Below, piece by piece: positions 28,171 through 57,153 of a stretch of DNA of 64,000 nucleotides. The stretch is from Streptomyces sp. NBC_01451 (GTDB lineage: Bacteria; Actinomycetota; Actinomycetes; Streptomycetales; Streptomycetaceae). The notes beneath the pieces are model-generated. The model was not told the origin of the DNA. It did not search any database and worked only from the letters and a program-made list of their open reading frames with translations. Location: the NCBI RefSeq assembly GCF_036227485.1, contig NZ_CP109479.1, forward strand, positions 1,178,001 through 1,242,000, read 5' to 3'. The first letter of the stretch is position 1; each line of letters starts with the position of its first letter. The position numbers were made by a program, and so were the translations under genes.

Positions 28171-28172
28171 GC

Positions 28173-28607: not shown

Positions 28608-28684
28608 GGTGGATCGACTCCTTGGGGTACGAAGCTCTGCGGGAGCGCTGGAGGTGGGGGCGGGGGTGGTGCTGCGGGGGGTGG

Positions 28685-31737: not shown

Positions 31738-32640
31738 ATGTCACGACCGGTCGTCGCCGGAGTCGACGGATCCCCCGAAAGCCTGGCCGCCGCCGAATGG
31801 GCCGCCCGGGAGGCGGTGCGCCGCGATCTGCCCCTGCACCTGGTGCACGCCTTCGACCGGGGCCCGGACCGAACGCCCTCCGCCGCGGCGGACGCGGTGC
31901 GGCGCCACCTGGGACGCGGCATTCTGCGCAGGGCCGAGGACCGTATCGCGCGGACCTGCCCCACGGCGCGGCTCACCGACGAGCAGGTCGAGGGCCCGAC
32001 GGCCGTGGCCCTGTCGCACGCCGCGCAGAACGCCGAGTTGCTCGTGCTCGGTTCGCGCGGCCTGAGCGGCTTCACCGGGTTCCTCGTCGGGTCCGTGGCC
32101 CAGTCGCTCGTGGCCCGGGCGACCCTGCCGGTCGTTCTGGTCGAGGCCGGGGAGCGGTCCGAGGACGAACATCTGGCGGACGAGGACGGCAACCCGTCGC
32201 TCCTCACGCCGTACCGTGACGTCGTTCTCGGCATCGACGTGCGCGACCCGTGCGACGCGGTGGTCGAGTTCGCCTTCGAGACGGCCCGGCTGCGCGGTGC
32301 GACGCTCCACGCGGTACATGCCTGGGACAACTCGTCGGCCGTCGCGCTCGGCCCGGGCGCGCCCGGCATCGGCGAAGGGCCCCGTCGCGAGGAGGAGTGG
32401 CGCGGCTTCCTCACCGCCGTGCTGCGGAACTGGCGCGACAAGTACCCCGGTGTCGAGGTCGCCGAGACCGTCGTCAAGGGCAGGGCAGGACCCCGGCTGG
32501 TCCGCGCCGCCGCGGGCGCAGGACTCCTCGTCGTCGGCCGCCGCGTGCGCGAGACCCGCCTCGGCCCGCACACCGGCCCGGTCACGAACACCGTGATCCA
32601 CCACGCGCGTTGCCCTGTCGCAGCCGTGGCGCACGACTGA
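31738..32640 (+). CDS. Tandem universal stress protein (two Usp domains)
   Basis: 300 residues: Usp domain 1 (about 4-140) with the ATP-binding pattern 'LGSRGLSGFTGFLVGS', and Usp domain 2 (about 158-298) where the equivalent 'VGRRVRETRLGPHTGPV' is altered. Tandem Usp proteins of this kind dominate DosR/OsdR-type dormancy regulons and bind ATP or cAMP. ACGGAGG lies 7 bases before ATG 31738. It is 42 bases upstream of the nitroreductase gene, so the two are probably one transcript. Confidence 0.94.
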   Translation: MSRPVVAGVDGSPESLAAAEWAAREAVRRDLPLHLVHAFDRGPDRTPSAAADAVRRHLGRGILRRAEDRIARTCPTARLTDEQVEGPTAVALSHAAQNAELLVLGSRGLSGFTGFLVGSVAQSLVARATLPVVLVEAGERSEDEHLADEDGNPSLLTPYRDVVLGIDVRDPCDAVVEFAFETARLRGATLHAVHAWDNSSAVALGPGAPGIGEGPRREEEWRGFLTAVLRNWRDKYPGVEVAETVVKGRAGPRLVRAAAGAGLLVVGRRVRETRLGPHTGPVTNTVIHHARCPVAAVAHD

Positions 32641-32682
32641 GCCCTGAGAGGATCAAGACAGCGACGAACGGCGGTGTCCGCC

Positions 32683-33666
32683 ATGGACGCGACACACACC
32701 CGGGTCGACCACGCGGCCAACCACCTGGTCCGCGCGGCCGTCACCGCGCCCTCGGTCCACAACAGCCAGCCCTGGCTGTTCGTCAACCGGGAGACGGGGC
32801 TCGATCTGTACGCGGACCCCACGCGCCGGCTCCTGCTCACCGACCCGGACGGGCGGGAGCAGGTCATCAGCTGCGGCGCGGCCCTGTTCAACCTGCGGAT
32901 CGCGATGCTGCACCTGGGCTTCCGGCCCGTCGTGCGGATGTTCCCCGACCCGTGGAACCCGGCCCACGTCGCCGGCGTCGGCTGGGGAGCGCACGCCCGG
33001 CCGAGCAGCGACGAGAACCTCATGTACCGCGCCCTGCGGCAACGGCACACGCACCGCGGCCCGTTCCACCACTCCCCTCTCCCGGAGCCACTGGTCGGGG
33101 AACTCCGCGAGCACGCACGGGCCGAGGGTGCCGAGCTGTACACGGTGGAATTCCCCCATGCCCGGCGCGACCTCGCCGAGTTGGTCCACACCGCCGAAGC
33201 CGTCAACCGCGCCGATCCCGGACGTGTCGCCGAACTGACCCGCTGGACCCGGGCCCCCTTGGACGAGCGTCCGGACGGTGTCCCCCTGGACGCCTGCGCC
33301 GCCCACCCGGACCGGACCGGTCTCGCCGGGCGCGACTTCCTCCGTTGCACAAGCACCCCGCCCGTCGCACCCGCGGTCTGGCCGCCGGAGACCGGACTGA
33401 TCGTCCTCCTCACCACGCGGCACGACACCCTGGAGGACTGGCTGCGCGCCGGACAGGCCCTGCAGCGAGTCCTCCTGCACGCCACCACGCGCTGGGCCGT
33501 GGCCGCCTTCCACACCCAGCCCCTCGAAATGCCCCGGCTGCGCGCCCGGCTGCGCACGACTCTCACCCGCGGAGAGTTCCCGCAGATGATCCTCCGCCTC
33601 GGTCATGCCACCCGGGGCCGGCCGACCCCACGACGACCGGTCGACGCGGTCCTGGCCGCCGGGTGA
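32683..33666 (+). CDS. Nitroreductase-fold protein, Acg/Rv3131-like
   Basis: 327 residues of the Acg subgroup of FMN-binding nitroreductases, recognised by 'LVRAAVTAPSVHNSQPWLF', 'GREQVISCGAALFNLRIAMLHLG', 'RALRQRHTHRGPF' and a C-terminal 'AGQALQRVLLHATTRWAVAAFHTQPLE'. In Mycobacterium tuberculosis such proteins belong to the DosR regulon; their role may be FMN storage or redox defence, not classical nitroreduction. ATG 32683; GTG 32674 is an alternative. Co-directional with the stress protein just upstream. Confidence 0.9.
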   Translation: MDATHTRVDHAANHLVRAAVTAPSVHNSQPWLFVNRETGLDLYADPTRRLLLTDPDGREQVISCGAALFNLRIAMLHLGFRPVVRMFPDPWNPAHVAGVGWGAHARPSSDENLMYRALRQRHTHRGPFHHSPLPEPLVGELREHARAEGAELYTVEFPHARRDLAELVHTAEAVNRADPGRVAELTRWTRAPLDERPDGVPLDACAAHPDRTGLAGRDFLRCTSTPPVAPAVWPPETGLIVLLTTRHDTLEDWLRAGQALQRVLLHATTRWAVAAFHTQPLEMPRLRARLRTTLTRGEFPQMILRLGHATRGRPTPRRPVDAVLAAG

Positions 33667-34164: not shown

Positions 34165-34398
34165 ATGCAAGCTCAACTGGGCGATCAGCTCATTGTCGAA
34201 AGCCCGACCACCGGCACCACCAGGCACGACGGAGAGATCGTCGGACTGCACCACGAGGACGGAACGCCACCCTACGACGTGCGCTGGTCGGACACGGACG
34301 AGGTGACGCTCGTCTTCCCCGGCCCCGACGCACACGTCCGCCATGTCGAACACGGGACCGGAAACACCGACGCGCCACCCCCGGCCGGACACGGATGA
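34165..34398 (+). CDS. DUF1918 protein
   Basis: 77 residues with the compact DUF1918 pattern 'GDQLIVES...TRHDGEIVGLHHEDGTPPYDVRW...VFPGPDAHV'. These small actinobacterial proteins are frequent in dormancy gene sets; the molecular role is unknown. GGGAAGGACGG precedes ATG. A single gene behind a DosR-like box. Confidence 0.92.
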   Translation: MQAQLGDQLIVESPTTGTTRHDGEIVGLHHEDGTPPYDVRWSDTDEVTLVFPGPDAHVRHVEHGTGNTDAPPPAGHG

Positions 34399-35450: not shown

Positions 35451-35708
35451 ATGGAAGCCAAGCAGTGGACCGTACAGATCTACATAACCGAAGAGGGAGA
35501 CGACACCCACGCACGTGCCGTCCTGACCACCCGGGACACGTCGAAGGTCACCGGCCGGGGCGTGGCCCGCCGCAACCCGATCGACCGTTCCGTTCCGGAG
35601 ATCGGCGACGAACTCGCCGCCAGCCGCGCCCTGGAAGATCTCGCCATCCGGCTCCACGACGTCTACTCCGACGACATCGTCCAGTTGACGGGTCCCGCCC
35701 AGCCCTGA
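35451..35708 (+). CDS. DUF1876 protein
   Basis: 85 residues with the DUF1876 pattern: 'KQWTVQIYITEEGDDTHARAVLTTRD', 'GRGVARRNPIDRSVPEIGDELAASRALEDLAIRL'. This small fold is often near universal stress protein and DUF1918 genes in actinobacterial stress islands. Function unknown. It ends 210 bases before the V/A-ATPase operon ends on the opposite strand. Confidence 0.92.
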   Translation: MEAKQWTVQIYITEEGDDTHARAVLTTRDTSKVTGRGVARRNPIDRSVPEIGDELAASRALEDLAIRLHDVYSDDIVQLTGPAQP

Positions 35709-35917: not shown

Positions 35918-36538
35918 TCAAGCATCGTCCTGAAGGGCACGGACGGCCCAGCGTCTGCGTACCGCGTCCTCGTGCTCGCTCTGTTCCAGGGCGAGTTCGA
36001 CGCGGGCCAGCGCCTGCTCCAGTCGCGGGATCAGTTTGCGCCGCAGGGCGCGCACGCGCCGGCGGGTGCTGAGCACCTCGGCCCCGACGGCGCGTGCCGC
36101 TGCGCGGGCGACGGCGTACTCGGCGGCGGCCCGCACGGCCTCGGCGTAGGCGGCCTCGGCATGGATCAGCGCGGTGTTCGCGGGCGACAACGCCTCCGGC
36201 TCCCGTTCCGGCACCGTGCAGGACGCGGTCCGCGGGTGTCGTACGCCCATCGTGGACGTCCAGACCACTTCCAATCCGGCGGGACGCTTGGGGGGCGGCC
36301 CGTCCAGGGACCCTTCGCCACCGAGAAGCAGCCCGCGCCGCAGCCAGGTCTCGGCCTCCCTCAGGCACTCGTGCCAGTGATCGCGTGCGGTGTGCTCGGC
36401 GCGCAGGAGTTCCGCGTGCCTGGCGCGCAGGATGCGCAGTTTCCGGTCGAGCAGGTCCGCGCCGCGCCGCGCGACCTCCAGACTGCGGCGCACCCTCGTC
36501 CGTCCGGCCCGTCCGAGCGGGATCCGCAGATCCGCCAT
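35918..36538 (-). CDS. ntpD: V/A-type ATPase subunit D (central stalk)
   Basis: 206 residues. Long N- and C-terminal helices ('GRAGRTRVRRSLEVARRGADLLDRKLRILRARHAELLR' and 'RRVRALRRKLIPRLEQALARVELALEQSE') flank a variable middle, the form of the rotating stalk subunit D. It ends the operon. AGGGAGGGTGATCCC precedes ATG 36538, 4 bases after the subunit B stop. Confidence 0.92.
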   Translation of the reverse strand: MADLRIPLGRAGRTRVRRSLEVARRGADLLDRKLRILRARHAELLRAEHTARDHWHECLREAETWLRRGLLLGGEGSLDGPPPKRPAGLEVVWTSTMGVRHPRTASCTVPEREPEALSPANTALIHAEAAYAEAVRAAAEYAVARAAARAVGAEVLSTRRRVRALRRKLIPRLEQALARVELALEQSEHEDAVRRRWAVRALQDDA

Positions 36539-36542
36539 GGGA

Positions 36543-37937
36543 TCACCCTCCCTCCGCCGCGCCATGCGCGTCGAGGAACTCCGTCGGCAGCATGGACAGT
36601 TGGCTGCGGGGCAGGGTGAGCAGCACCTGCCAGGCGCGCTCCAGGGTCTGTTCGAGCGTGCGCAGTTCGTCGCGCCGCTGGGCCACGAACCCGCGGGCGA
36701 ACGCCTCGTCGAGATCGAGGTACCGGCGGTCGGTGGAGCTGAGCGCCGCCTGTCCGACGAGGTCCGCCAGTTCCTTGATCTGCCGGGCCCGCGCCAGGGC
36801 GGCGAGCAGTTGCGCGGCGACATCGAGGTGGTCGTCACGGGTACGGCCCGGACCCGCGCCCCTGCGCATCAGCCGGGACAACGAGGACAGCGCGTCCACC
36901 GGCGGATAGACACCCCTGGCGTGCATCTCGCGGGAGAGCACGATCTGGCCCTCGGTGATGTACCCGGTGAGGTCCGGTACGGGGTGCGTGATGTCGCCCG
37001 CGGGCATGGTCAGCAGCGGCAGCACGGTGACCGACCCGGGCAGGCCCCGGATACGCCCGCACCGCTCGTAGAGGGACGCCAGGTCGCTGTAGAGGTAGCC
37101 GGGATAGGCGCGGCGTGCCGGGATCTCACCGCGGGCCGCGGAGACCTCGCGCAGCGCCTCGGCGTAGCTCGTCATGTCCGTCATCACCACCAGCACGTGC
37201 CGACCCTCGCCGAAGGCCAGCCGCTCGGCGACGGTGAGCGCGATGCGCGGGGTGAGGATGCGTTCGATCACGGGGTCGTCGGCGGTGTTGAGCAGGAGCA
37301 CCAACTCACCCGCGGCGGACCGCTCCTCCAGCTTGTCGCGGACGAAGTCGGCGTCCGCGTGCGTCACCCCCATGGCGGCGAAGACCACACAGAACGGCTC
37401 TCCTCCGGCCGTCGACTGGGCCGCGATCTGCGCGGCCAGCTCCAGGTGCGGAAGACCCGCCGCCGAGAACACCGGCAGCTTCTGGCCCCGTACGAGGGTG
37501 GAGAGCGCGTCGACGGCGCTGATCCCGGTCAGCACCGGTTCCGCGGGGGGCTCGCGGCGCACCGGGTTGATGGGGAGGCCGCCGACGGCGGAGTCGGCGG
37601 CGCCGAAGACGGGCGGACCTCCGTCGAGGGGTTCACCGCGGCCGTTGCACACCCGCCCCAGCCAACCGGGTCCCACCGGGATGCGCAGCGGCGCCCCGGT
37701 GAAGGCGGCGCGGATGCGCGCGGGGTCGATGCCCGCGGTGTCCTCCAGCACCTGCACCACGGCCGTGCCCCGGTCGACCTCCAGCACGAGTCCGTGCCGC
37801 TGCTCGCCCGAGTCGAGGGTGAACAGCACGAACTCGTCCCAGCCGACTCCCTCGACCTTGTCGACGACCGCGAGGGGACCTCGCAGTTCCCGCACCGAGG
37901 TGTACTCGATGCGGCCCCAGTCCTCCGTGGTGTTCAC
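36543..37937 (-). CDS. ntpB: V/A-type ATPase subunit B (non-catalytic)
   Basis: 464 residues, family length. It has the B-type start 'EYTSVRELRGPLAVVDKVEGVGWDE', a non-catalytic nucleotide region without Walker A ('LVRGQKLPVFSAAGLPHLELAAQIA') and the conserved 'RRAYPGYLYSDLASLYERCGR' and 'VPDLTGYITEGQI' elements. It alternates with A in the hexameric head. GTG 37937 follows GGGGAGG and overlaps the subunit A stop by 4 bases (GTGA). Confidence 0.96.
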   Translation of the reverse strand: MNTTEDWGRIEYTSVRELRGPLAVVDKVEGVGWDEFVLFTLDSGEQRHGLVLEVDRGTAVVQVLEDTAGIDPARIRAAFTGAPLRIPVGPGWLGRVCNGRGEPLDGGPPVFGAADSAVGGLPINPVRREPPAEPVLTGISAVDALSTLVRGQKLPVFSAAGLPHLELAAQIAAQSTAGGEPFCVVFAAMGVTHADADFVRDKLEERSAAGELVLLLNTADDPVIERILTPRIALTVAERLAFGEGRHVLVVMTDMTSYAEALREVSAARGEIPARRAYPGYLYSDLASLYERCGRIRGLPGSVTVLPLLTMPAGDITHPVPDLTGYITEGQIVLSREMHARGVYPPVDALSSLSRLMRRGAGPGRTRDDHLDVAAQLLAALARARQIKELADLVGQAALSSTDRRYLDLDEAFARGFVAQRRDELRTLEQTLERAWQVLLTLPRSQLSMLPTEFLDAHGAAEGG

Positions 37938-39670
37938 GACACCTCCCCGAGCCGGTCCAGCATCGCCTTGCGCAGCGCCTCCACCGTCGCCGCGTCGTGC
38001 GGGCCCGCCTCCTCGCGGGCGCGCAGCACCGGTGTGAAGTCGACCTCCTCGACGCGCTCCGCCGGCACCCCGGAATCGACCAGTTCGCGGCACCTGCCGA
38101 CGACGGCCAGCGCCGCCTCGGCGAGCGCGGCCGTCTTCTCCGCGCCGCTGTAGGCGTCGCGTTCGGACAGCGCGCTCTGCTGCAGCACGCCTTCGCGCAC
38201 GATCCGACCGCCCAGGACGCTGATCCGCTCCTGTGCGGGCAGTGCGGTGATGCCGACCAGGTCGACCAGGTCGGCCAGTCGGTCGGCCTCCGCGAGCAGG
38301 TCCGTCACCAGTGCCCGGCGGGCGGGCCAGCCCGGGTCGTCCGTCGCGGCGTGGTGGGCACCGAGCGCCTCGGCGTCGCGGGAGAACGACTCGGCCCAGG
38401 AGACGGCCGGGTAGTGGCGGGCGTAGGCGAGTTCGCGGTCCAGGGTCCACAGACAGCGCACGAAACGCTGGGTGTGGGCGGTGACGGGCTCCGCCATGTC
38501 GCCGCCGGGCGGGGACACCGCGCCGATCACCGTCACCGAACCCTTGCAGCCGCCCAGGGTCGTCACCGCCCCGGCACGTTCGTAGAACGCGGCGAGGGCC
38601 GAGGCGAGGCCTGCCGGATAGCCCTCCTCGGCGGGCAGGGCGCCGGTGCGGGAGGCGAACTCGCGCAGCGCCTCGGCCCACCGGGAGGTGGAGTCGGCGA
38701 TGACGACCACGTCCAGGCCCATGTCGCGGAAGTACTCGGCGACCGTGACCCCGGTGTGGATGCTGGCCTCGCGGGCCATCATCGGCATGTTGGAGGTGTT
38801 GGCGATGATCACGGTCCGGTCGGTGAGTCGGCCGCCGGTGCGCGGGTCGGTCAGCGCGGTGAACTCGTCGATGACGTCGGCCATTTCGTTGCCGCGTTCA
38901 CCGCAGCCGACGTAGACGATGACGTCCGCGTCGCACCACTTGGCGATCTGCTGCAGCAGCACCGTCTTGCCGGTGCCGAAGCCGCCGGGGACGGCGACCG
39001 TGCCGCCCAGGGCCACCGGGAAGAGCAGGTCGATGGCCCGCTGTCCGGTACCCAGTGCCCTGCCGGACTCCAGGCGCTCACGGACGGGGCGGGGCCGGCG
39101 GACGGGCCAGTGGGCCGTCATCCGGACCGGGGTGCCCGCCACCGACGCGACGATCGCGTCCGCGGGGTGGCGGCCCGCGCGCGCGATGTGGTCCACCGGG
39201 CCGTTGCAGCCGGGCGGCACCAGAACCCGCAGCGGAACCGGACCCGCGCCGTGGAGCTCGCCGAGGACGGTCCCCTCCTCGACCGGGTCGCCCGCCGCCA
39301 CCCGGGGCACGAACGCCCACTCGGGCCGCCGCCCGTCCGGTCGGCCGACGGCGCCGGGCTCCAGCCACGTGCCCGCCGCCGCCAGCGGGCGCAGCAGCCC
39401 GTCGAAGATGCCGCCCAGCAGTCCCGGGCCGAGCGGCGCCGACAGCGGTCTGCCGAGCGGGCGCACCGGTGCACCGGGGGCCAGACCACCCGTGTATTCG
39501 TACGCCTGGACGGTGACGACCCGGTCCCTGATCGCGACGACCTCCCCGGGCAGGCCGGCGTCGCCGAGTGCGACCAGGTCGCTCATCGCGGTGCCGCCGA
39601 CGTCCTCGGCCTCGACCAGCGGCCCGGTGACCCGCGCCACGCGGCCGGGTCCGTGCGGTTCGAACGTCAT
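37934..39670 (-). CDS. ntpA: V/A-type ATPase subunit A (catalytic)
   Basis: 578 residues, full length for the catalytic subunit, including the V/A-specific non-homologous insert (about 110-190). Walker A 'GGFGTGKT' at 229-236, catalytic glutamate in 'GER' at about 258, 'ADSTSRWAEALRE' and 'SPPGGDMAEPVT' match functional A subunits. ATG 39670 overlaps the subunit E stop (ATGA). Catalytic residues are intact, so the enzyme should be active. Confidence 0.97.
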   Translation of the reverse strand: MTFEPHGPGRVARVTGPLVEAEDVGGTAMSDLVALGDAGLPGEVVAIRDRVVTVQAYEYTGGLAPGAPVRPLGRPLSAPLGPGLLGGIFDGLLRPLAAAGTWLEPGAVGRPDGRRPEWAFVPRVAAGDPVEEGTVLGELHGAGPVPLRVLVPPGCNGPVDHIARAGRHPADAIVASVAGTPVRMTAHWPVRRPRPVRERLESGRALGTGQRAIDLLFPVALGGTVAVPGGFGTGKTVLLQQIAKWCDADVIVYVGCGERGNEMADVIDEFTALTDPRTGGRLTDRTVIIANTSNMPMMAREASIHTGVTVAEYFRDMGLDVVVIADSTSRWAEALREFASRTGALPAEEGYPAGLASALAAFYERAGAVTTLGGCKGSVTVIGAVSPPGGDMAEPVTAHTQRFVRCLWTLDRELAYARHYPAVSWAESFSRDAEALGAHHAATDDPGWPARRALVTDLLAEADRLADLVDLVGITALPAQERISVLGGRIVREGVLQQSALSERDAYSGAEKTAALAEAALAVVGRCRELVDSGVPAERVEEVDFTPVLRAREEAGPHDAATVEALRKAMLDRLGEVS

Positions 39671-40194
39671 GGTGCCCACAGCTCCTCCGCCTCCGTACCG
39701 GTCCGCTCCAGTGCCCGGCGCGCGAACGCGGCCAGACTGCAGTCGAGCCTGCGGCCCTCCGTCTCGCCGACGACACCTCCGCCGGGGGCCTCGGTCACCC
39801 GGACGCCGGCGCCCAGCGCGGCGCGGACGTACGTGGTCAGCCGGGTGCGGAGGAGCGGGTACGAATCGGCCCTGCGCAGGTCTTCCACACCACGTACGAC
39901 CAGTCGGCCCAGTTCCTCCCAGCATTCCCGGCGGGCGGCGAGCTCTCGGGCACGGGCGGCCCTGCGGCCACGGGTGTGCGCGGCGTCGCGGGCGGCCTCG
40001 GCGTCGGCCTCGCCCAGCCTGCGCGCCTCGGCGAGAATCGCCGCGACCCGGCCCTCGGCCTCGGCGAACACGGCCGCGACCTGGGCATCGGCCTCGGCCA
40101 GCAGGGCCTCGCCATCGACCCTGGCGGCCCGCAGCAGCTGTGCCCGCACCGGATCGAGCGCGGCGTCGGCTTCCGGGGGGAGTGAGGTCCTCAT
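39667..40194 (-). CDS. V/A-type ATPase subunit E-like (peripheral stalk)
   Basis: 175 residues: an Ala/Glu/Arg-rich coiled coil (about 15-100) followed by a globular C-terminal part ('EELGRLVVRGVEDLRRADSYPLLRTRLTTYVRAALG'), the layout of the peripheral-stalk subunit E. Position between F and A and the 4-base overlaps at both ends support the call; sequence identity to any reference cannot be judged here. Confidence 0.8.
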   Translation of the reverse strand: MRTSLPPEADAALDPVRAQLLRAARVDGEALLAEADAQVAAVFAEAEGRVAAILAEARRLGEADAEAARDAAHTRGRRAARARELAARRECWEELGRLVVRGVEDLRRADSYPLLRTRLTTYVRAALGAGVRVTEAPGGGVVGETEGRRLDCSLAAFARRALERTGTEAEELWAP

Positions 40195-40412
40195 GGCGGC
40201 ATCACCGCGATGAGCGGACCCTGCCCGTCCACCGGCCCTTCGCCGAGCACCTCGGCCGCGGCCGGTGTGAGGATGACCAGATCCACGTCCGGCGCGAGCC
40301 CGTGCCAGGCTGTGCGCACTGCTTCCGGATCCTGCGCGGGGTGCAGGACCACGCCCGCGGACGCCAGTCCGGCGATGCGCAGCCGTTCCCCGATCGCCGC
40401 TATGTGAGCCAT
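40191..40412 (-). CDS. V/A-type ATPase subunit F-like
   Basis: 73 residues, somewhat short. The start 'AHIAAIGERLRIAGLASAGVVLHPAQDPEAVRTAW' followed by 'DVDLVILTPAAAEVL' is the CheY-like fold of subunit F, which modulates the central stalk. Overlaps the E gene by 4 bases (ATGA). Confidence 0.82.
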   Translation of the reverse strand: MAHIAAIGERLRIAGLASAGVVLHPAQDPEAVRTAWHGLAPDVDLVILTPAAAEVLGEGPVDGQGPLIAVMPP

Positions 40413-40414
40413 GA

Positions 40415-42253
<1,839 letters not shown>

Positions 42254-42270
<17 letters not shown>

Positions 42271-43180
42271 CGAGGTCCTCCCGTGCCCGGCCCTGGTGGG
42301 CGGCGGCGACCAGAGCGGCGCGCACCCGCCAGGCATCGACGGTCAGCACGGCGGTGGCGCCCACGACCGGTGTCACGTCGAAGTGCGCCCTGTGCAGCAT
42401 CCGCAGGCCGTCCCTCTCGACGGCGAGCCACCAGCGGGCCTCGGCCCGCCACAGGTCCGCGGGGTGCTCGGTGTCCTCCAGTGCCCAGCGGGCCACCGAC
42501 GGCAGACGCGTGCGGAAGTCGCCGTAGGACGGGGCCCGCACGGCCGACCGGCCCAGGATCCGCTCGGCATGCACGGCGGCCCGCCCGGTCGGGCCGCGGC
42601 CCAGCAGGAAGGTCTCGCGAGCCACGAGCAGCGCGGCATCGCCCGCCGCCCACCGGGCCGCCGGCGGCAGGTCGGCCACCATGCGGGCGTCCGCCGACAG
42701 CCGCATCCCGGTCACCACCGCCGGCATCGACTCACCCCCGGGGTCTCCCCACGCGGAGGCGGTCAGTACGGCCCGCACCTCGCCCGGAGACCTCGCCCGG
42801 GCCAGCCGGGGCCAGGCGGTCGACAGCGTGCCCAGCCGGTACGGCGCGGGCCGCTGCTCGCCGGACAGGGCACGCAGGTGGTCCCGGGTGTTCGCGATCT
42901 CGAAGCCGGCGGCGAGCCGGCGTACGGCGGCGACACCCGGGCGGGGCTGCCATCCGGCGAGCACCCGCAGCTGCCACAGCAGGGCACCGAGGACCGCGCG
43001 CCCGGACTCGGCGGACTCGGGCTCCGCGTCCAGGGCACGTCGGTAGGAGGTGCCGGGCAGTGCGCGCAGGGCGTCGGTCGGGGTGGCCGCGTCCGCCAGT
43101 TCCCGTGCCCGGTCCGGGCCGAGGCGTCCCGCGGCCATCGACCTGGCGCGTGTCACGCCCGCGACCCAGCCCGCGCCCAT
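42254..43180 (-). CDS. ntpC: V/A-type ATPase subunit C (AC39/d-like)
   Basis: 308 residues, mostly helical, with a start ('GAGWVAGVTRARSMAAGRLG') and repeated helical modules consistent with the AC39/subunit C socket that links the central stalk to the c-ring. Identification leans on operon position, since this subunit diverges quickly. CTAGGAGG precedes ATG 43180. Confidence 0.82.
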
Positions 43181-43190
43181 GGCGACCCTC

Positions 43191-43649
43191 CTAGTCCGGT
43201 CCGCTCCGCTCGGTGCGGGGGACCATGCTCAGTTCGTCCGCCACCCGCGCGACCAGGCGCGCCGCGAAGGCAGGCGTGCGCTCGCGCGCTCTCTCACGCA
43301 ACGCCTCCACCGCACGCCGCGACGAGGCGTCCGTCCGTTCGGCCTCGGCGACGGCCTCTTCCCGGATCCGCTTCGCGGTCCCGCTTCTGACCTCCAGTGC
43401 CTGCGCCCGTGCCGCCCGCACCATGTCCTCGGCCTGCCGGGCAGCGACGCGGCGACGTGCTTCCGCCTCCCGGACGGCGGCGGAACGGATTCGGTCGGCC
43501 TCGGCCACGGTGTCGTCCAGCCGTGTGAGCGGAGGCTCCAGCTCGGCCGCGAGCTCGGCCGACCGGTCGGCGGGGACACCTCCCGGTGCGGCCTGGCCGG
43601 GTGAACCGGCCGGCCGAAGGCGGATACGGAACTCTCGGATCCCAGGCAT
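43191..43649 (-). CDS. V/A-type ATPase subunit H/G-like (peripheral stalk coiled coil)
   Basis: 152 residues with a long Ala/Arg/Glu coiled coil (about 35-125: 'LTRLDDTVAEADRIRSAAVREAEARRRVAARQAEDMVRAARA'), as in the NtpF/AhaH stalk subunit that pairs with E. It is the first gene of the nine-gene operon (H-C-I-K-F-E-A-B-D). CGGAGG lies before ATG 43649. The shared promoter region carries the 24-bp palindrome. Confidence 0.8.
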   Translation of the reverse strand: MPGIREFRIRLRPAGSPGQAAPGGVPADRSAELAAELEPPLTRLDDTVAEADRIRSAAVREAEARRRVAARQAEDMVRAARAQALEVRSGTAKRIREEAVAEAERTDASSRRAVEALRERARERTPAFAARLVARVADELSMVPRTERSGPD

Positions 43650-43740
43650 CAGAACCTCCGGGCACGACATCGGCGCTCGCCGTGACCCGGCTCTCACGTT
43701 ACGAAGGTTCCGAAAGCCTCTCTAGGGCTGATTGCCCTAC

Positions 43741-43764
43741 GGACAGGGCCGATCGGCCCTGTCC
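43741..43764. promoter_or_regulatory. Perfect 24-bp palindrome (DosR-like box) between V/A-ATPase operon and CBS-BON gene
   Basis: The core GGGCCGATCGGCCC (43746-43759) is extended by 5 matching bases on each side (GGACA.../...TGTCC), so the whole 24 bp is self-complementary. It is 91 bases from the start of the ATPase operon (43649, minus) and 70 bases from the CBS-BON start (43835, plus), well placed to act on both. Confidence 0.82.
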
Positions 43765-50066: not shown

Positions 50067-50957
50067 ATGACCGGTCCTGTCGTCGTCGGACTCGACGGTT
50101 CCCCAGCCGGCACGTCGGCCGCGTGGTGGGCCGCCCGTGAAGCGGTCGAAAGGCGGCTTCCCCTTCTCCTCTTCCACTCCTGGACCACCCAGCCGCTCGA
50201 TGTGCCCGGCGCCCGGGAAGCCCTGGGCAAGCAGCAGTACGGGGGACGGGCACTCCAGCGGGCCGAGACCGAACTGCGCCACCGCTACCCCGGTCTGACC
50301 TTGACCACGGAGCTGGCCTCGTCCCCGGCCGCGGAGGCGCTGGTGGACCTCAGCGGGACCGCGGCACTGGTGGTGCTCGGCTCCCGCGGACACGGATCGA
50401 CGGCGAGCTTCCTGCTCGGTTCCATCAGCCTGCGGGTACTGGGCCTCGCCCGGTGTCCGGCCGTCACCGTCCGGGCCGGCGACCCCGCCGTCGAGAACGG
50501 CTGGGAGCATCCCGCGGCCGTGGACCACGATGAGATCGTGGTCGGCCTGAAGCAGCCGGGACCGGCCTCCGACTCCCTCCTGGAATTCGCGTTCACCTCC
50601 GCCGCCTCGCGCGCAATGGGCGTGCGTGCCGTACGGGCCCTCCCGCTGTCCACCCTGATGCCCTATCCGCACACGATGGCCGCCGGGCGCGCCGACAGCC
50701 GCTACCAGGCTGAGGAACGCATACGACTCACGGCCGCACTGGTGCCCTGGCGCGAGAAGTTCCCCGACATTCCCGTCGTCGAGCAGGTCTCGACCGGTCC
50801 GGCCTCGGCGGTGCTCCTGTACGCCGCGGCGCACAGCGGACTCGTGGTCGTGGGCCGCCGAAGGCATCCGTCGCGCCTGCGCTGGAAACTCGGGCCGGTC
50901 GCGCACGCGGCGCTGCACCACGCGCCGTGCCCGGTCGCCGTCGTCCCGCACGACTGA
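50067..50957 (+). CDS. Tandem universal stress protein (two Usp domains)
   Basis: 296 residues. Domain 1 (about 3-137) begins 'PVVVGLDGSPAGTSAAWWAAREA' and keeps the ATP-binding pattern 'LGSRGHGSTASFLLGS'; domain 2 (about 153-295) has the altered 'VGRRRHPSRLRWKLGPVAHAALHH'. CCGGAGG lies 6 bases before ATG. It is close in layout to the stress protein at 31738 and probably arose by duplication within the island. Confidence 0.94.
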   Translation: MTGPVVVGLDGSPAGTSAAWWAAREAVERRLPLLLFHSWTTQPLDVPGAREALGKQQYGGRALQRAETELRHRYPGLTLTTELASSPAAEALVDLSGTAALVVLGSRGHGSTASFLLGSISLRVLGLARCPAVTVRAGDPAVENGWEHPAAVDHDEIVVGLKQPGPASDSLLEFAFTSAASRAMGVRAVRALPLSTLMPYPHTMAAGRADSRYQAEERIRLTAALVPWREKFPDIPVVEQVSTGPASAVLLYAAAHSGLVVVGRRRHPSRLRWKLGPVAHAALHHAPCPVAVVPHD

Positions 50958-51149
50958 CACCCCTGCCCTGCCGACCTGTGCCGGGGCCCGGCGGTGTCGC
51001 AGCCGTGGCGCCCGCGTCGGGCCGGGGACCGGCCGCGCTGCGGCACGGGTCGCGCGGGCATGGATCCCATCGCGGACCTGGCCCTGCGCCGCCGACGGAC
51101 CATCGGTGCCGGAACCTGACGCCCCGTCAACCACGCCGCCCCTGCCGCG

Positions 51150-51163
51150 GGGCCGAACGGCCC
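51150..51163 (+). promoter_or_regulatory. DosR-like box upstream of the GerMN lipoprotein gene
   Basis: GGGCCGAACGGCCC, exact match to the consensus, 95 bases before ATG 51259. The 300-base gap 50958-51258 otherwise appears empty. Confidence 0.65.
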
Positions 51164-51258
51164 GTGCATTCACCCCGGTCGGCCTCGTGACCAGTGCCGA
51201 CAGGCCCTGGAAGCCCGCCTCCGGCAGGACTTGGATGGAAGTGTCCCGGGAGGCTGCC

Positions 51259-52245
51259 ATGAACAGTGAAGCCCCGAACTCCCGCGTCTGCCGACGCCAC
51301 CGCAGAGCCCTCACCGCGGTGTTGGCTCTCCCCTTGCTCGTGGTCACCGCGTGTGGCACGAGCGGCGGCTCGGGTACGCCAGGAGGAATCGACCAACCCT
51401 CGCGATCCCCGGCCGGCACAGCCACCTCGGGCGGTACCACCGGAACGCCCGCACCGGCCACGCCGTCCACGCCCGCCGCCCCGGGTACCACACACCCCGC
51501 GCCCTCGACGAGCAGCGGCTCCGCCACCGCGGCCAAACAGATCCGCACCGCGGTCTACTTCCTGCACGGCGAGCAGGTCTCGCCCGCCCCGCGCACCGTG
51601 ACCGCCCCGGCCACCGCCACCGGGGCCGTCCACGCCCTGCTGGCCGGCCCCAGCCGCTACGAAGGCGCGCGCAGCCGCACCACTGCCATCCCGTCCGGCA
51701 CCACGCTGCGCTCCGTCGTGGTCCGCGACCACGTGGCGACCGTGGACCTCTCCGGCCGGTACGACGGCGGCGGCAGCCTGTCCATGCGGGCCCGCCTCGC
51801 CCAGGTCGTGTTCACCCTGACCCGCTTCCCCTCGATCCACTCGGTCAGGTTCGAGCTCGACGGCAAGCCGGTGAAGTACTTCGGCGGCGAGGGCATCGTC
51901 CTCAACGGCCCCGTGGGACGGGCCGACTTCGAGGACCTGGCCCCGGCCGTCCTGATGGAGTCCCCACTGATCGGCGACACCGTGCGCACCCCCGTACGAG
52001 TCTGGGGCAGCGCCAACACGTTCGAGGCGGTGTTCCGTCTGAAGGTCACCGACACCACCGGACACACCGCGGCCGACGTGCGGGTCCAGGCGACCTCCGG
52101 CACCGGCACCCGCGGCACCTTCGACGTCACCTTCCCCTACAAGGCCGCCCGCGGCGGACCGGGCCTGCTGACCGCGTACTACCTGTCCCCCAAGGACGGC
52201 AGGCCCGTCACCGTCGACACCGTGCCACTGACCGTGAACCGCTGA
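51259..52245 (+). CDS. Lipoprotein with GerMN and Gmad2 domains
   Basis: 328 residues. Signal peptide with lipobox 'VTAC' (C32), a Ser/Thr/Pro/Gly linker to about 92, a GerMN domain (about 95-195: 'TAVYFLHGEQVSP', 'VHALLAGPSRYEGARSRTTAIPSGTTLRSV', 'ATVDLSGRYDGGGSLSMRARLAQVVFTLTRFPSIHSVRFELDGKPV') and a Gmad2 immunoglobulin-like domain (about 225-325: 'ESPLIGDTVRTPVRVWGSANTFEAVF'). GerMN domains occur in spore germination and in cell-wall lipoproteins. GGGAGG precedes ATG 51259. A DosR-like box suggests expression in dormancy. Confidence 0.92.
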   Translation: MNSEAPNSRVCRRHRRALTAVLALPLLVVTACGTSGGSGTPGGIDQPSRSPAGTATSGGTTGTPAPATPSTPAAPGTTHPAPSTSSGSATAAKQIRTAVYFLHGEQVSPAPRTVTAPATATGAVHALLAGPSRYEGARSRTTAIPSGTTLRSVVVRDHVATVDLSGRYDGGGSLSMRARLAQVVFTLTRFPSIHSVRFELDGKPVKYFGGEGIVLNGPVGRADFEDLAPAVLMESPLIGDTVRTPVRVWGSANTFEAVFRLKVTDTTGHTAADVRVQATSGTGTRGTFDVTFPYKAARGGPGLLTAYYLSPKDGRPVTVDTVPLTVNR

Positions 52246-52339
52246 CGCCGACCGTACGGTGCCGGCACGAGGAGACCGCGTCCAGGGCCGTCGCGGGCCG
52301 GATGGAGAGCTGACCGGCCCGCTCTGCCCGGGCCCCCTG

Positions 52340-52415
52340 GACGGGACGCTGAAGCAGACCGTCACGGTCGGCGTGGTCACCCTCGCAGGGCAGGTGTCGA
52401 GCGACGCGGCGGGAA
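52340..52415 (+). pseudogene. Remnant of a BON domain
   Basis: One frame reads 'GTLKQTVTVGVVTLAGQVSSDAAG', matching the core strand-turn-strand of BON domains (compare 'VQVQVLNGTVTMKGSL' in the CBS-BON protein at 43835). No start, no CBS pair and no intact frame around it. Probably a leftover of a second CBS-BON gene. The rest of 52246-52755 is non-coding apart from the box at 52682. Confidence 0.35.
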
Positions 52416-52681
52416 GCGGATCGCCCTCGGCAGGAAGAGCCGGACGGCGGCGTCGGCACGGCAGAGGTGGCGACCAGCGCTGTTACCGCGGCCGACCGCC
52501 ACCGTTACGGAACGGCACCCTCACCCGCACCCGCACCGGCACCGGCAGTCCCGGACGTGGAAGGGCCGCCGCGCACCGTCCGGCCACCGACATGTGCCCG
52601 CGCTTCCGCCTCGGCCAGGCGGCAAGGAACCGTATGTCCCCGCGCGACCGCCGCAGAAGCGGCCCGTTCGGCACCCGCTCA

Positions 52682-52695
52682 GGGCCACTTGGCCC
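52682..52695 (+). promoter_or_regulatory. DosR-like box upstream of the third universal stress protein
   Basis: GGGCCACTTGGCCC: perfect 6-base arms around CT, 60 bases before ATG 52756. Confidence 0.65.
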
Positions 52696-52755
52696 ACGCC
52701 TCGGCCACCCGGTCCGGGCCACCGTGGGAGCAGCGGGCCATCCGGGGAGGTTGCC

Positions 52756-53319
52756 ATGACCGAACTCAGCGCCGGCAACGGCATCGTGGTGGGCATCGAC
52801 GGGTCGGAGGCGTCCAGGGAGGCGCTGCGCTGGGCGACCCGGCAGGCTCACGCTCTGCACACGGATGTCGTCGCCGTGCACGCCTGGGAGCCGACCGGCC
52901 CACGGCTCGCCCCCTATGCCCCCGTCTCGGCACGTCCGACGCCCGCCGAGCAGCGGGAGCGGGCCGCACAACTCCTCTCCTCGACGCTCCGCGAGGTCTT
53001 CGGGCCACGGATCGACAGTGCCGTACACGCGGTCGTGGTGGAGGGACCACCCGCACGGGTTCTGCTGCAACAGGCGCGCGGCGCACTGCTGTTGGCGCTC
53101 GGGCGCTCGCCCCGTGGGTCGTACGACCAGCTCGCGACAGGTCCAGTGGCCCGCGCCTGTCTGCGTCAGGCGACGGTCCCCGTGGTCGCGGTGCCCGCCC
53201 CGCAGTGGCCCGCGTCGCCTCCCGCCGGCGTCGGAGCGCTCCCCACGGCCAGAACGGGAGGCGCACAACAGACAGCGGACGTCAGGGAACTCCGCACCAG
53301 GAGTGCGGGCACAGGGTGA
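52756..53319 (+). CDS. Single-domain universal stress protein
   Basis: 187 residues: one Usp domain (about 8-145, 'NGIVVGIDGSEASREALRWATRQA') and a polar C-terminal tail of about 40. The nucleotide loop reads 'LGRSPRGSYDQLATGPV', so the usual final GS is GP and ATP binding is uncertain. GGGGAGG precedes ATG. It is 62 bases upstream of the flavodoxin-domain gene and probably cotranscribed. Confidence 0.9.
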   Translation: MTELSAGNGIVVGIDGSEASREALRWATRQAHALHTDVVAVHAWEPTGPRLAPYAPVSARPTPAEQRERAAQLLSSTLREVFGPRIDSAVHAVVVEGPPARVLLQQARGALLLALGRSPRGSYDQLATGPVARACLRQATVPVVAVPAPQWPASPPAGVGALPTARTGGAQQTADVRELRTRSAGTG

Positions 53320-53381
53320 TCGCCGGGCGACCGCTTCCGAAGCCCGCCCGAAGAGGTCGAGGGGAACGTCGAGGTGCCGTC

Positions 53382-53891
53382 ATGGATGTCCTGGTGGGTT
53401 ACGCGACCGATCACGGTTCGACGCGTGAGATCGCCGAGCGGCTGGCCGTCCGGCTGAGCGAGGCCGGGTTGAGGGCCGAGGCGCGGGCCATGACGACGGT
53501 GGACGACGCCGACGCGTACCGGGCGTTCGTCCTGGGCAGCGCCGTGCACGGGCAGACCTGGCTGGATGCGGCCAAGGACTTCCTGCGTGACAACCTCGAT
53601 GTACTGGGCTCCCGGCCTGTGTGGATCTTCAGTGTCGGTATGCCGGGCGCGCTGCGTGGTCCGTGGAAGCGGCTGGCGCCCAAGGAGATACCGGTGATCG
53701 TCGGGAGCCTGCCCGGCGATCTGCCGTTCCGGGACCACCGGTTGTTCTCCGGTGTCATCGCACGAGATCAGCTGCCCCGCACCGGACGCGTCCTGTTCCA
53801 CCTGGTGGGCGGCCGGTTCGGCGACCACCGCGACTGGGACGCCATCGACGTCTGGGCCGTGGGGATCGCCGACGAGCTGACCACCGGATGA
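53382..53891 (+). CDS. Flavodoxin-domain protein
   Basis: 169 residues of the flavodoxin_5/HemG-like type: FMN phosphate loop 'GYATDHGSTREIAERLA', 'VLGSAVHGQTWLDAAKDFL', 'PVWIFSVGMPG'. It could be an FMN electron carrier or protoporphyrinogen-oxidase-like enzyme. GTCGAGGTGCCGTC precedes ATG 53382. Same direction as the stress protein before it. Confidence 0.9.
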   Translation: MDVLVGYATDHGSTREIAERLAVRLSEAGLRAEARAMTTVDDADAYRAFVLGSAVHGQTWLDAAKDFLRDNLDVLGSRPVWIFSVGMPGALRGPWKRLAPKEIPVIVGSLPGDLPFRDHRLFSGVIARDQLPRTGRVLFHLVGGRFGDHRDWDAIDVWAVGIADELTTG

Positions 53892-54382: not shown

Positions 54383-55819
54383 TCAGCGGACGAGCACGTG
54401 CTCTCCGGAGCGGGGTACCACGGCGGTCCAGCCCAGGGTTCGGTCGATGCGATCCCGCAGATCCTCGGCCGCGTCCGGTTCGCCGTGCACCAGGTATGTG
54501 GTGTGCGGGGCGGGCGCGCCCCGCAGCCAGTCGATGATCTGCGCGGCGTCGGCGTGGGCCGAGAAGTGCGGCACGTCGGCGACCGTGGCACGCACCGGCA
54601 CGTACTCGCCGAACATCTTCAACGCCGTGGCGCCGTCGACGAGGTCGCGGGCGCGCGTGCCCCGCGCCGCGAAGCCGACCACGACGACGGCGTTGCGCGG
54701 GTCGGGCAGCAGGCGTCGCAGGTGGTGCAGGACACGGCCTCCGGTGGCCATGCCGGACGCCGAGACGATGACCGCCGGTCCGGTGGATTCACCGATGTCG
54801 ATGGACTCCTGGATCGACCGTGCGGCGAGGAACGGCTCGGGGCTCAGCGCGGCGTGGCCCGCGGCGACGACCTCGGGGCGCAGCTCGGAGGCCCGGGTGA
54901 GGATGGCTTCGCGGTAGACGTCGAGGGCGGCCAGGGCCATCGGGCTGTCCACGTACACCGGCACGGCTGCCGGAAGGCGACCGGTGCGGCGGAGTTCGGC
55001 GAGTTCGTGCAGGACGACCTCGGTGCGGTCGAGAGCGAACGCCGGGATGACCACGGTGCCGCCACGGGCGAGGGTACGGGTCAGCACGTCCGCGAAGTGG
55101 ACGCGCGCTGCCTCTTCCTCGTGACGCCGGTTGCCGTAGGTCGACTCCATGAGCAGCACGTCCGCCCCGGAGAACGGCTCCGGCGGCCGTAGCAGAGGGT
55201 GACCCGGGCGGCCGAGGTCGCCGCTGACGGCGAGGGTGTGACCGTCCTCCAGGGTGAGCCGGGCCCAGGCCGAGCCGAGGATGTGGCCGGCGGGATGCAG
55301 GGTGAGCCGGGTGTGCGGGGCGATGTCGATCGGCGTGCAGGTCGGCACCGGGTCGAGAAGCCCCAGGGCGCGGTCGACATCCGAGTCGTCGTACAGCGGC
55401 TGGGCGGGCCGGTGCTTGGACCAGCCGTGCTCGTTGGCGTGTCGGGCGGACTCCATCTGCAGCTTGGCACTGTCCCGCAGCACGATCTCCATCAGACGTG
55501 CGCTGAACTCCGTGGTCACGATCCGACCCCGGAAGCCGTGGCGCACCAGCCTGGGCAGGTATCCGCAGTGGTCCAGGTGGGCGTGGGTGACCACGACCGC
55601 CTCGATGTCGGAGCCGTCGCAGGGCAGACTGCGCCAGTTGCGCCTGCGCAGGTCGGCGAGGCCCTGGAAGAGGCCGCAGTCGACGAGTACGCGCGCGTGG
55701 TCGCTCTCGACGAGGAACTTGCTGCCGGTGACCGTGCCCACACCGCCCAGGAAGGTGAGCAGCGCGGGACGGGGGTGGCCTGTCGCCGATTCCACCGGGC
55801 GGGATTCGGTTGTGGTCAT
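54383..55819 (-). CDS. Metallo-beta-lactamase / beta-CASP ribonuclease-like protein
   Basis: 478 residues: metallo-beta-lactamase domain with 'THAHLDH' (H79, H81, D83, H84) and later 'SGDLGRPG', an inserted beta-CASP domain (about 245-375) with '[16 protein letters not shown]', and a C-terminal RMMBL segment ('[15 protein letters not shown]'). This is the architecture of RNA-cleaving CPSF73-like enzymes. GAGGAGG lies 7 bases before ATG 55819. A DosR-like box lies 35 bases upstream, suggesting RNA turnover as part of the stress program. Confidence 0.93.
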
Positions 55820-55854
55820 GACGGCCTCCTCCTCGAAGGGTGCGGCGCGCCTCG

Positions 55855-55868
55855 GGGCCGTTCGGACC
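55855..55868 (-). promoter_or_regulatory. DosR-like box upstream of the beta-CASP gene
   Basis: GGGCCGTTCGGACC, one mismatch to the consensus, 35 bases from the start at 55819 (minus strand), the shortest spacing in the island. Confidence 0.55.
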
Positions 55869-55978
55869 TGGCGGACTCGCCGTCGGAGTGTTGTGGTGCA
55901 AGTGCCGGGAAGAGCGCGAGGAGATGAGGAGAAACGGCTGGCGGCGGCCGTGCACCGCGCAACCGGGCTCCGCGACAA

Positions 55979-56171
55979 GCGGGCAGGGCCCTGCCCGCCC
56001 TGTCGTTGGCGCGCCTGGCCCGGCAGGTCCCCGGCTGTCCCGGGTGCCGGCGCTCCCGAGCGACGACGACCCACTCGACAGGCGCGGAGACGGCCACGGT
56101 CCCCCTCCTTCCTCGGCGGACGGCTCAAGCCTGCACTCGGATGAGCGCGGCGTGTCAGGGCCGACCGGCCC
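55979..56171. promoter_or_regulatory. Orphan palindromes in a gene-free region
   Basis: A perfect 20-bp palindrome (centre GGGCCC, arms GCGGGCAGGG/CCCTGCCCGC) lies at 55979-55998, and an exact island box GGGCCGACCGGCCC at 56158-56171. The region 55820-56642 has no gene I can support. A plus-strand frame after the box ends at 56471 with '[20 protein letters not shown]', which looks coding but lacks a start site, so a decayed gene may lie here. Confidence 0.5.
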
Positions 56172-56642
56172 CGATGCGAGTGCCGAGCGTCCTCGGCATG
56201 CCCCACGACCTGCTCCTGTGGAACCGGTCGCACCGAATGCGGGGCACCGGGTGTCCCGAGCCGACGGTCGTACGGTCCCGGCAGGAACGCCGCGGAAGGC
56301 GGCACCGGTATCGAGTACGGGCCCGCGATCCGTCGGCGAAGCCGATGCCGCCCCGGCTGCTGCACTCTGCGCTCCGGACGGATCAGCGGCATGCCGTCGG
56401 TCGACGCCTCCACCGCCGCCGTACGGGAGCACACCCGGCAGGGCCGCCGCATCGCCGCCGGTGAGCGGTGACGGGCGCGAGAAGCACGGTTGCCGCGCAC
56501 CGCCGCTGAGCTTCACCGACTGTGCGAGCCCCGTGCCCTGCGCAACGACGTGCGGGCCGCCTCTGCGACCACCGCAGCCGGGACGAGATCGACCGGTGGA
56601 ATGCCCGGGCCCACAGACCTCGGCGGCACGCGCCCCTCCGCC

Positions 56643-57104
56643 TCAGTCGACCTCGACCGTGATCTCGGGCGGCATCCGCAGGGTGTTGTGCACGGTGCAG
56701 TGGTCGACCACCGCGCGCAGGGCCTCCTGCCGCGCATGGCTCAACCGGACGGGCAGCAGGATCCGCAGGCGGACAGCCGCGACCCGGGCGGGCCGGTCGT
56801 CCGCCATGTCGTACTCGGTCCTGACCTGCAGCTGGTCGTAGGGCAGCTGGTGCCGCTGCAGGAACCGGCCCGCGTAGTAGGCGACGCAGGTGGCGAGCGA
56901 GACGACGAACAGCTCGACTGGGGTGGGTCCGTCGTCGTCGCCGCCGGCCTCGACGGGCTGGTCGACGGTGAGTTCGTGTCCCCGTACGAAGACCGCGTAC
57001 GCCTGGTCCGCGACGTGTGTGACCTGGATCTGTCCGGGCGGCTCCGCGATGGTCTGCGCGGGGCGCGGAATCCCCGCGTCGCGGGCTGATGATTTCGTGT
57101 TCAT
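56643..57104 (-). CDS. OsmC-family peroxidase-like protein
   Basis: 153 residues of the OsmC/YhfA type. Both redox cysteines are present: C73 ('SLATCVAYYAGRFL') and C136 ('VVDHCTVHNTL'). The N-half carries 'GHELTVDQPVEAGGDDDGPTPVELFV'. These enzymes reduce organic hydroperoxides or act on thiols. AAGGAAG precedes ATG 57104. It follows the site-2 protease gene by 49 bases in the same direction and is likely the last gene of that unit. Confidence 0.92.
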   Translation of the reverse strand: MNTKSSARDAGIPRPAQTIAEPPGQIQVTHVADQAYAVFVRGHELTVDQPVEAGGDDDGPTPVELFVVSLATCVAYYAGRFLQRHQLPYDQLQVRTEYDMADDRPARVAAVRLRILLPVRLSHARQEALRAVVDHCTVHNTLRMPPEITVEVD

Positions 57105-57153
57105 CACAGCACTTCCTTCGGGTGCTCTCGGCCGTAGGGCGCGGGCCGTTCTC

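Follow-up and report, generated by a model that had tools for sequence, protein, structure and literature searches.

Why should a bacterium keep a V/A-type rotary ATPase beside its F-type ATP synthase? A/V-type enzymes are widespread in Bacteria beside F-type ones (PMC10656485). The question becomes testable in Streptomyces at a locus of Streptomyces sp. NBC_01451, where there is a candidate regulator, a putative binding site and a stress to test for the second enzyme. The locus lies within a stretch of 64,000 nucleotides (hereafter the window; C1:1178001-1242000, C1 being the single contig of 10,266,650 bases that constitutes the genome), in which an earlier reading of the letters (the original prediction) had placed a complete V/A-type ATPase operon inside a dormancy island and under a palindrome.

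We have examined the operon, its upstream region and its relatives. The cluster setting and the palindromic box suggest a rotary motor for survival rather than growth, and we consider it somewhat better than an even bet that this proton-type, nine-gene V/A-ATPase belongs to an OsdR/DevR-type hypoxia/redox dormancy regulon, working alongside the F-type enzyme once respiration has stalled.

A nine-gene V/A-type operon beside an F-type ATP synthase

Nine genes in the order H-C-I-K-F-E-A-B-D run on the minus strand from 43649 to 35918. The original prediction had described all of them as overlapping; the gene set and order hold, while overlaps (4-17 nt) are found at five of the eight junctions, the remaining three having gaps of 2, 4 and 10 nt. 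The residues that it had named are all present: the Walker A sequence GGFGTGKT and the GER motif in A, E123 in K, and R381 in I. These features are conserved among relatives, for which we assembled a panel of the best 80 of 235 loci from named species genomes, comprising 51 from Streptomycetaceae and 29 others (including Nocardia, Mycobacterium, Mycolicibacterium, Rhodococcus, Saccharopolyspora, Amycolatopsis, Lentzea, Georgenia, Nocardioides, Actinoplanes and Actinoallomurus). GER is found in 81/81 A subunits and GGxGTGKT in 80/81, LAEG in 72/72 K subunits, and FxRLAAFG in 62/63 I subunits; R381 of I is invariant in 27/27 aligned sequences.

Assignment to the V/A type draws on these catalytic features of A, on the absence of a Walker A from B and on the residues of I and K; in addition, A, B, D, I and K each exceed the Pfam cut-off (Table 1; gene boundaries are those of the gene calls, and some Pfam matches were scored on longer open frames). 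Family matches are weak for C, F and E, and H has none: H matched nothing in Pfam (longer frame) or NCBIfam, C nothing in an NCBIfam scan, and E nothing in a Pfam scan of its 262-aa open frame. A profile of F built from 27 relatives has as its best PDB match a V-type subunit F (2qai, E 3.5e-4). The complete nine-gene set is present in 67 of the 80 panel loci; 11 of the 13 incomplete loci reach a contig end, L170 and L179 being those that do not.

At C1:2783591-2791532 the same genome carries an F-type operon, in which alpha and beta were identified by family and the other subunits by inspection of the translations. The V-type subunit I family has no second match anywhere in the genome. As judged from these genes, the V/A-type enzyme is the second rotary ATPase of this genome.

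An exact OsdR-type box upstream of the operon

As originally described, a perfect 24-bp palindrome, GGACAGGGCCGATCGGCCCTGTCC, lies 91 bp from the operon start and is shared with a divergent gene encoding a CBS-BON protein. Perfect palindromes of this length are expected about 0.03 times per 64 kb, as estimated from base composition. Its core, AGGGCCGATCGGCCCT (43745-43760), is identical to the OsdR consensus derived for S. coelicolor (PMC5069765). An exact match to this 16-bp core occurs just once in the 10.27-Mb genome, and the core is accompanied by a second, less perfect inverted repeat close by (Table 1).

Core sites with up to three mismatches are concentrated in the window, which holds 11 against approximately one expected from the 170 found genome-wide; at this threshold the genome as a whole has no excess of boxes (the reversed pattern gives 163). 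Further groups of near-perfect sites are seen around 422-429 kb and 869-943 kb. When scored with a position weight matrix (PWM) constructed from 26 S. coelicolor sites, the upstream regions of nine window genes reach at least 14, with the top score, 21.8, common to H and the CBS-BON gene; the sites of the PGA_cap gene (14.3) and of the gene at 12052 (14.0) lie more than 200 bp from the start.

Conservation of the box and of dormancy-type neighbours

The placement of the operon among dormancy-type genes is borne out in silico by genes encoding universal stress proteins (Usp), CBS proteins and nitroreductases, which are linked to it far above control. At least one dormancy-type marker gene is found at 48/51 Streptomycetaceae loci, 20/29 other panel loci and 25/26 further loci from the genus, compared with 1/20 control stretches. 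The marker families were picked from the window and their hidden Markov models (HMMs) built on 27 loci, some of whose genomes also contribute to the panel, so that the two sets are not independent; the controls are random stretches, for which 20 of the 27 genus genomes having an A subunit were used, and represent the genus Streptomyces only. The linkage to Usp genes that the original prediction had proposed to look for across genomes extends beyond the family: a Usp is present in 13/19 stretches from outside Streptomycetaceae, with about 1.5/19 at most expected by chance (13 to 61 domains per genome, each taken as a separate random gene, which gives approximately 8% of 21.7-kb stretches). Usp domains were counted for 19 of 20 such isolates, and the one left out, L157, has a Usp.

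The box is likewise conserved in position. Allowing one mismatch to the core GGG[AC]CNNNNG[GT]CCC, 60-140 bp upstream of the H start, we find it at 33 of the 45 loci from Streptomycetaceae, counting the window (6.8% in control windows), and at 8 of the 26 from other actinomycetes (3.3% in controls; binomial p 1e-6, which overstates significance, as the panel loci are kin). The counts for the CBS-BON gene given below omit 6 of the 51 and 3 of the 29 loci, where a contig end cuts the region or H/C is not recognisable. Tandem pairs, 19-26 bp apart and with no more than three mismatches in total, occur at 28/45 and 4/26 loci, with controls of 2.4% and 0.9%, while 178 ordinary gene starts preceded by an intergenic stretch yielded 10 single boxes and 5 tandem ones. 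Homologous operons lying consistently outside any stress island and without this box, which the original prediction had named as telling against it, are thus not what the relatives display.

At several Streptomycetaceae loci no site scoring at least 13 was found within 4.5 kb upstream, and Actinoallomurus soli has a row of DosR-like sites (by eye). Co-transcription with an upstream Usp gene was considered as the cause of missing boxes and set aside, being clear for Streptomyces sp. NBS 14/10 only.

A candidate sensor kinase and response regulator

The window encodes a candidate sensor kinase whose first GAF domain resembles that of DevS (Table 1): the His of its GHPPM sequence aligns with the His of YHPPM in DevS, which is the heme ligand there and a putative one in the kinase. 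A LuxR-type response regulator at C1:903365-904057 is DevR-like, its best PDB match being DevR itself (3c3w, 3.8e-78; next family, 3.4e-45), and Usp-like and pyruvate-phosphate-dikinase-like genes lie near it (by eye). We regard this kinase and this regulator as a candidate acting pair.

Another LuxR-type regulator, within the window at 8198-8908, was rejected as the OsdR counterpart, since in the PDB it matches VraR best, with DevR in seventh place (5.2e-26). The gene calls of 1240001-1255000 contain no DevR-like protein (by eye), and no LuxR-type place is listed between 1186875 and 1686532. The link to an OsdR/DosR-type regulator that had been proposed for this locus gains substance in silico from the exact consensus, the conserved position and tandem arrangement of the boxes, the DevS-like kinase and the DevR-like regulator; a consensus box upstream, with a DevR-like regulator and a DevS-like kinase in the genome, is also as expected of an OsdR/DevR regulon.

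The DevR-like gene lies in a second, larger island of dormancy type, C1:868001-928000, which also contains hydrogenase-like, nitroreductase-like and AdhE-like genes (by eye). LuxR-type genes are found close to OsdR-box-like sites near 422385, 548719 and 9661613, and the genome may hold two or more such regulators.

A compact enzyme with a probable proton ring

Three subunits distinguish this enzyme and its actinomycete relatives. F is 70-81 aa long (76 sequences), compared with 104-116 aa in 7/9 phylum outgroup loci where it was readable, and the part absent relative to the outgroup is the C-terminal segment; its lack could imply a change in the control of hydrolysis. I spans 434-477 aa (63 sequences, trimmed to the profile), compared with 652 in Thermus. 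A profile of I from 27 relatives finds V-type subunit I/a in the PDB and aligns to residues 180-646 of the 652 in Thermus I, so the absent part would fall in the N-terminal cytosolic domain, which carries the peripheral stalks. K consists of a two-helix N-terminal segment, a linker with a small-x-small motif, and a c-type hairpin bearing E123; a profile from 33 sequences finds V-type proteolipids and Thermus K in the PDB. In the best AlphaFold model of K (mean pLDDT 76), residues 71-139 exceed 80 by blocks, and the N-terminal part is lower.

The N-terminal two-helix segment of K is conserved, including W4 and P9, and could be a cleaved leader. In the small-x-small motif, column 57 is Ala in 25/33 sequences and column 59 in 31/33, the window having Ser at column 59; an earlier count of A-x-A by pattern (70/70) was dropped as not discriminating, in favour of these column counts. 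K may therefore be processed to a two-helix ring subunit. This resemblance to a precursor, as in the Thermus enzyme, is what recommends the view that the V/A-ATPase is a low-flux ATP synthase, running on a small proton gradient in dormancy and leaving growth to the F-type enzyme: the Thermus enzyme is an ATP synthase, and a large number of ring sites per ATP helps synthesis when the gradient is low. On the other hand, cleavage of K is a prediction, Ala-rich linkers make a small-x-small motif easy to find, and the ring stoichiometry is an assumption; we judge this role possible, at a good deal less than even chances.

The ring also bears on ion type. Sodium rings have Ser or Thr after the ring Glu, together with a Gln ligand. 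In K the residue following the ring Glu is Gly in 72/72 sequences, and no Gln is present in helix 3 of K from the window; K thus lacks both features of the sodium-type V-ATPase ring, a sodium site is unlikely, and the ring is likely to be proton-translocating. A sodium-pumping V-ATPase serving salt or pH stress rather than hypoxia has precedent, as known bacterial V-ATPases include such pumps and 2bl2 (V-type sodium ATPase subunit K) is among the K-profile PDB matches. Given the ring residues, and a box and neighbours that point to OsdR, we give it very little weight.

Patchy distribution and a separate clade

At a threshold of E 1e-100 or better, an A subunit is found in 27/295 genomes of the genus (the present one included); it is also found in 16/293 genomes of an order sample that overlaps the genus sample, and in 89/396 of a phylum sample, nearly all of the latter at 42-51% identity. 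The nearest A subunits among named species are those of Streptomyces. In a tree built by a quick method, the A subunits of actinomycetes group together on a long branch (support 100), apart from 18 phylum outgroup sequences; nested within them is a single group (support 99) made up of the 52 Streptomycetaceae rows, of which the window is one. The simplest reading of the patchiness is descent within the family accompanied by much loss; an old transfer may be the alternative.

Two Streptomyces genomes carry degenerate operons. In Streptomyces sp. CB02959 (G174; L055/L170), A, B and D are kept with pieces of H and E, and C, I, K and F are missing; in G181 (L059), a shortened A lies beside CBS-BON and is followed by B and D. 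Such copies, with the patchy distribution, are what would be expected if the operon merely persisted by hitchhiking in a variable stress island, sharing no regulation with its neighbours. We find this improbable, because similar neighbourhoods recur in many genera, boxes keep a fixed distance across most loci of Streptomycetaceae, and the Streptomycetaceae sequences form one group in the A tree.

Other features of the window

The genes surrounding the operon that encode dormancy-type proteins are listed in Table 1 with their OsdR-like sites.

Table 1. Features of the V/A-type ATPase locus and its surroundings (positions in the window)
Feature	Position	Strand	Basis or remark
Usp and nitroreductase-family protein	31738..33666	+	
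DUF1918 protein	34165..34398	+	OsdR-like site 97 bp upstream, PWM 15.0
Rv2632c-like protein	35451..35708	+	OsdR-like site 150 bp upstream, PWM 18.1
Subunit D, central rotor shaft, 206 aa	35918..36538	-	PF01813, 98 bits vs. 25.7 (longer frame)
Subunit B, non-catalytic, 464 aa, without Walker A	36543..37937	-	Pfam; NF003235, 609 bits vs. 349
Subunit A, catalytic, 581 aa, GGFGTGKT, GER	37934..39679	-	Pfam; NF003220, 649 bits vs. 470
Subunit E, peripheral stalk, 175 aa	39667..40194	-	NCBIfam NF002629, E 4.4e-6, below cut-off
Subunit F, central rotor, 73 aa, without C-terminal segment	40191..40412	-	PF01990, E 0.006, below cut-off
Subunit K, rotor ring, E123	40415..40837	-	PF00137, 58 bits vs. 24
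Subunit I, membrane stator, shortened, 478 aa, R381	40834..42270	-	PF01496, above cut-off
Subunit C, 308 aa	42254..43180	-	PF01992, E 4.4e-6, 26.7 bits, under cut-off of 29
Candidate H-type peripheral stalk subunit, 152 aa, charged/Ala-rich, first gene	43191..43649	-	Position, composition, conservation (28 sequences)
Second box-like inverted repeat, TAGGGCTGATTGCCCTA	43723-43739		21.5 bp from the first, centre to centre
Perfect 24-bp palindrome	43741-43764		
CBS-BON protein	43835-44701	+	Pfam on longer open frame
Usp, Germane/Gmad2 protein, Usp, flavodoxin	50067..53891	+	OsdR-like sites before 50067 (PWM 17.6) and before 51259 (16.2, Germane protein)
Metallo-beta-lactamase/beta-CASP protein, OsmC, M50 protease with CBS	54383..58293	-	OsdR-like site before 54383-55819 (PWM 15.9)
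GAF-GAF-HisKA_3 kinase, candidate sensor	61895..63514	+	First GAF like DevS GAF-A (2y8h, E 1.1e-48)

Adjoining the CBS-BON gene, 45197-48595 encodes a 1132-aa fusion of polysaccharide deacetylase, glycosyltransferase and acyltransferase domains. Just past the island, 26635-30712 holds a conservon-like set (a GAF protein, a small GTP-binding-like protein, DUF742, Roadblock and an HATPase_c protein).

Discussion

From the gene set, its conserved residues, the box, the linkage and the separate clade, all of which are present in the sequence, we infer regulator binding, induction in low oxygen, proton specificity and a direction of work. In the mechanism that we propose, a DevS-like GAF sensor kinase, such as the one encoded in the window, would detect loss of oxygen or a redox change; the phosphorylated DevR-like regulator would bind the 24-bp palindrome and the less perfect neighbouring repeat; and the ATPase operon and the divergent CBS-BON gene would both be switched on. 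The V/A-ATPase would then most likely hydrolyse ATP, keeping a minimal proton-motive force, with low-flux synthesis a close second. Hydrolysis is favoured because the F-type enzymes of mycobacteria are poor at it, and those of actinobacteria at large may be too.

Several observations weigh against membership of the operon in such a regulon. The A subunit is not found in 268/295 genus genomes, and dormancy therefore does not require the enzyme. The distance to the DevR-like gene is approximately 310 kb, and other candidates remain (2 of 83 LuxR-type places have been compared with DevR). Transport direction and ion identity are themselves deduced from protein sequence. No box stands at the expected position in 18/26 actinomycete loci outside Streptomycetaceae, M. 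interjectum among them. Finally, within Streptomycetaceae, where a CBS-BON gene is divergent from H in 32/45 evaluable loci, the box tracks that gene, occurring at 29 of the 32 loci that have it and 2 of the 13 that do not, and so it could serve CBS-BON alone. The ATPase operon would in that case merely adjoin the CBS-BON gene and possess an unrelated promoter of its own. A promoter-like element, GA.ACTG[GA], does lie 30-80 bp before H at 24/45 Streptomycetaceae loci (22/4500 control windows), and may mark an unusual promoter class. That the box governs CBS-BON alone is nevertheless rather unlikely in our estimation, since 8/26 loci outside the family are boxed at the same distance and a divergent CBS-BON gene is found at 0/26. 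In addition, S. bluensis has the exact core with no CBS-BON call (though its PWM score is low, 5.2), and in Streptomyces sp. NBS 14/10 a box precedes a Usp gene that lies immediately before H and runs in the same direction.

We therefore continue to favour control of the ATPase operon by an OsdR/DevR-type regulator. More tentatively, and at slightly less than even chances, the reading may extend to a whole clade: a compact proton V/A-ATPase (short F, shortened I, precursor-type K) that would serve in many actinomycetes as a module of a DosR/OsdR-type regulon, made only when respiration fails. Control of the operon by such a regulator would in itself add an energy-conserving machine to a dormancy regulon that bears on the bioenergetics of non-growing actinobacteria; in the clade-wide reading, a rotary ATPase made upon respiratory failure would perform a task beyond an F-type enzyme that is latent in hydrolysis.

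In a literature search that took in neither most subscription papers nor bioRxiv preprints, we found no link between a V/A-ATPase and DosR/OsdR, Usp or hypoxia in actinomycetes. A/V-type ATP synthase genes have been reported in the actinomycete Melissospora conviva, where they are read as an adaptation; this account, in its accessible portion (PMC12451618), concerns presence only, with nothing on dormancy genes or regulation. The term 'ATPase' is absent from the main text of the OsdR paper (PMC5069765).

Among characterized machines, the Thermus thermophilus V/A-type ATPase has homologous subunits, and the window's K aligns to Thermus K including the N-terminal stretch. Unlike the Thermus enzyme, the one described here is encoded in the order H-C-I-K-F-E-A-B-D, has an F without the C-terminal segment and an I approximately 170 residues shorter near the N-terminus, and is accessory to an F-type enzyme, with dormancy-type neighbours. 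Other V/A-ATPases of the phylum share a homologous A, but their genes, where readable (7/9 loci), show a C-F-A order (C by eye). The regulatory setting resembles the OsdR regulon of S. coelicolor (PMC5069765) and the DevR/DosR regulon of M. tuberculosis, with which it has in common the box, Usp, nitroreductase and CBS genes, a DevR-like regulator and a DevS-like kinase. To judge from these comparisons, the machine itself is a known one, set apart by its clade and anatomy and by a regulatory setting that appears new.

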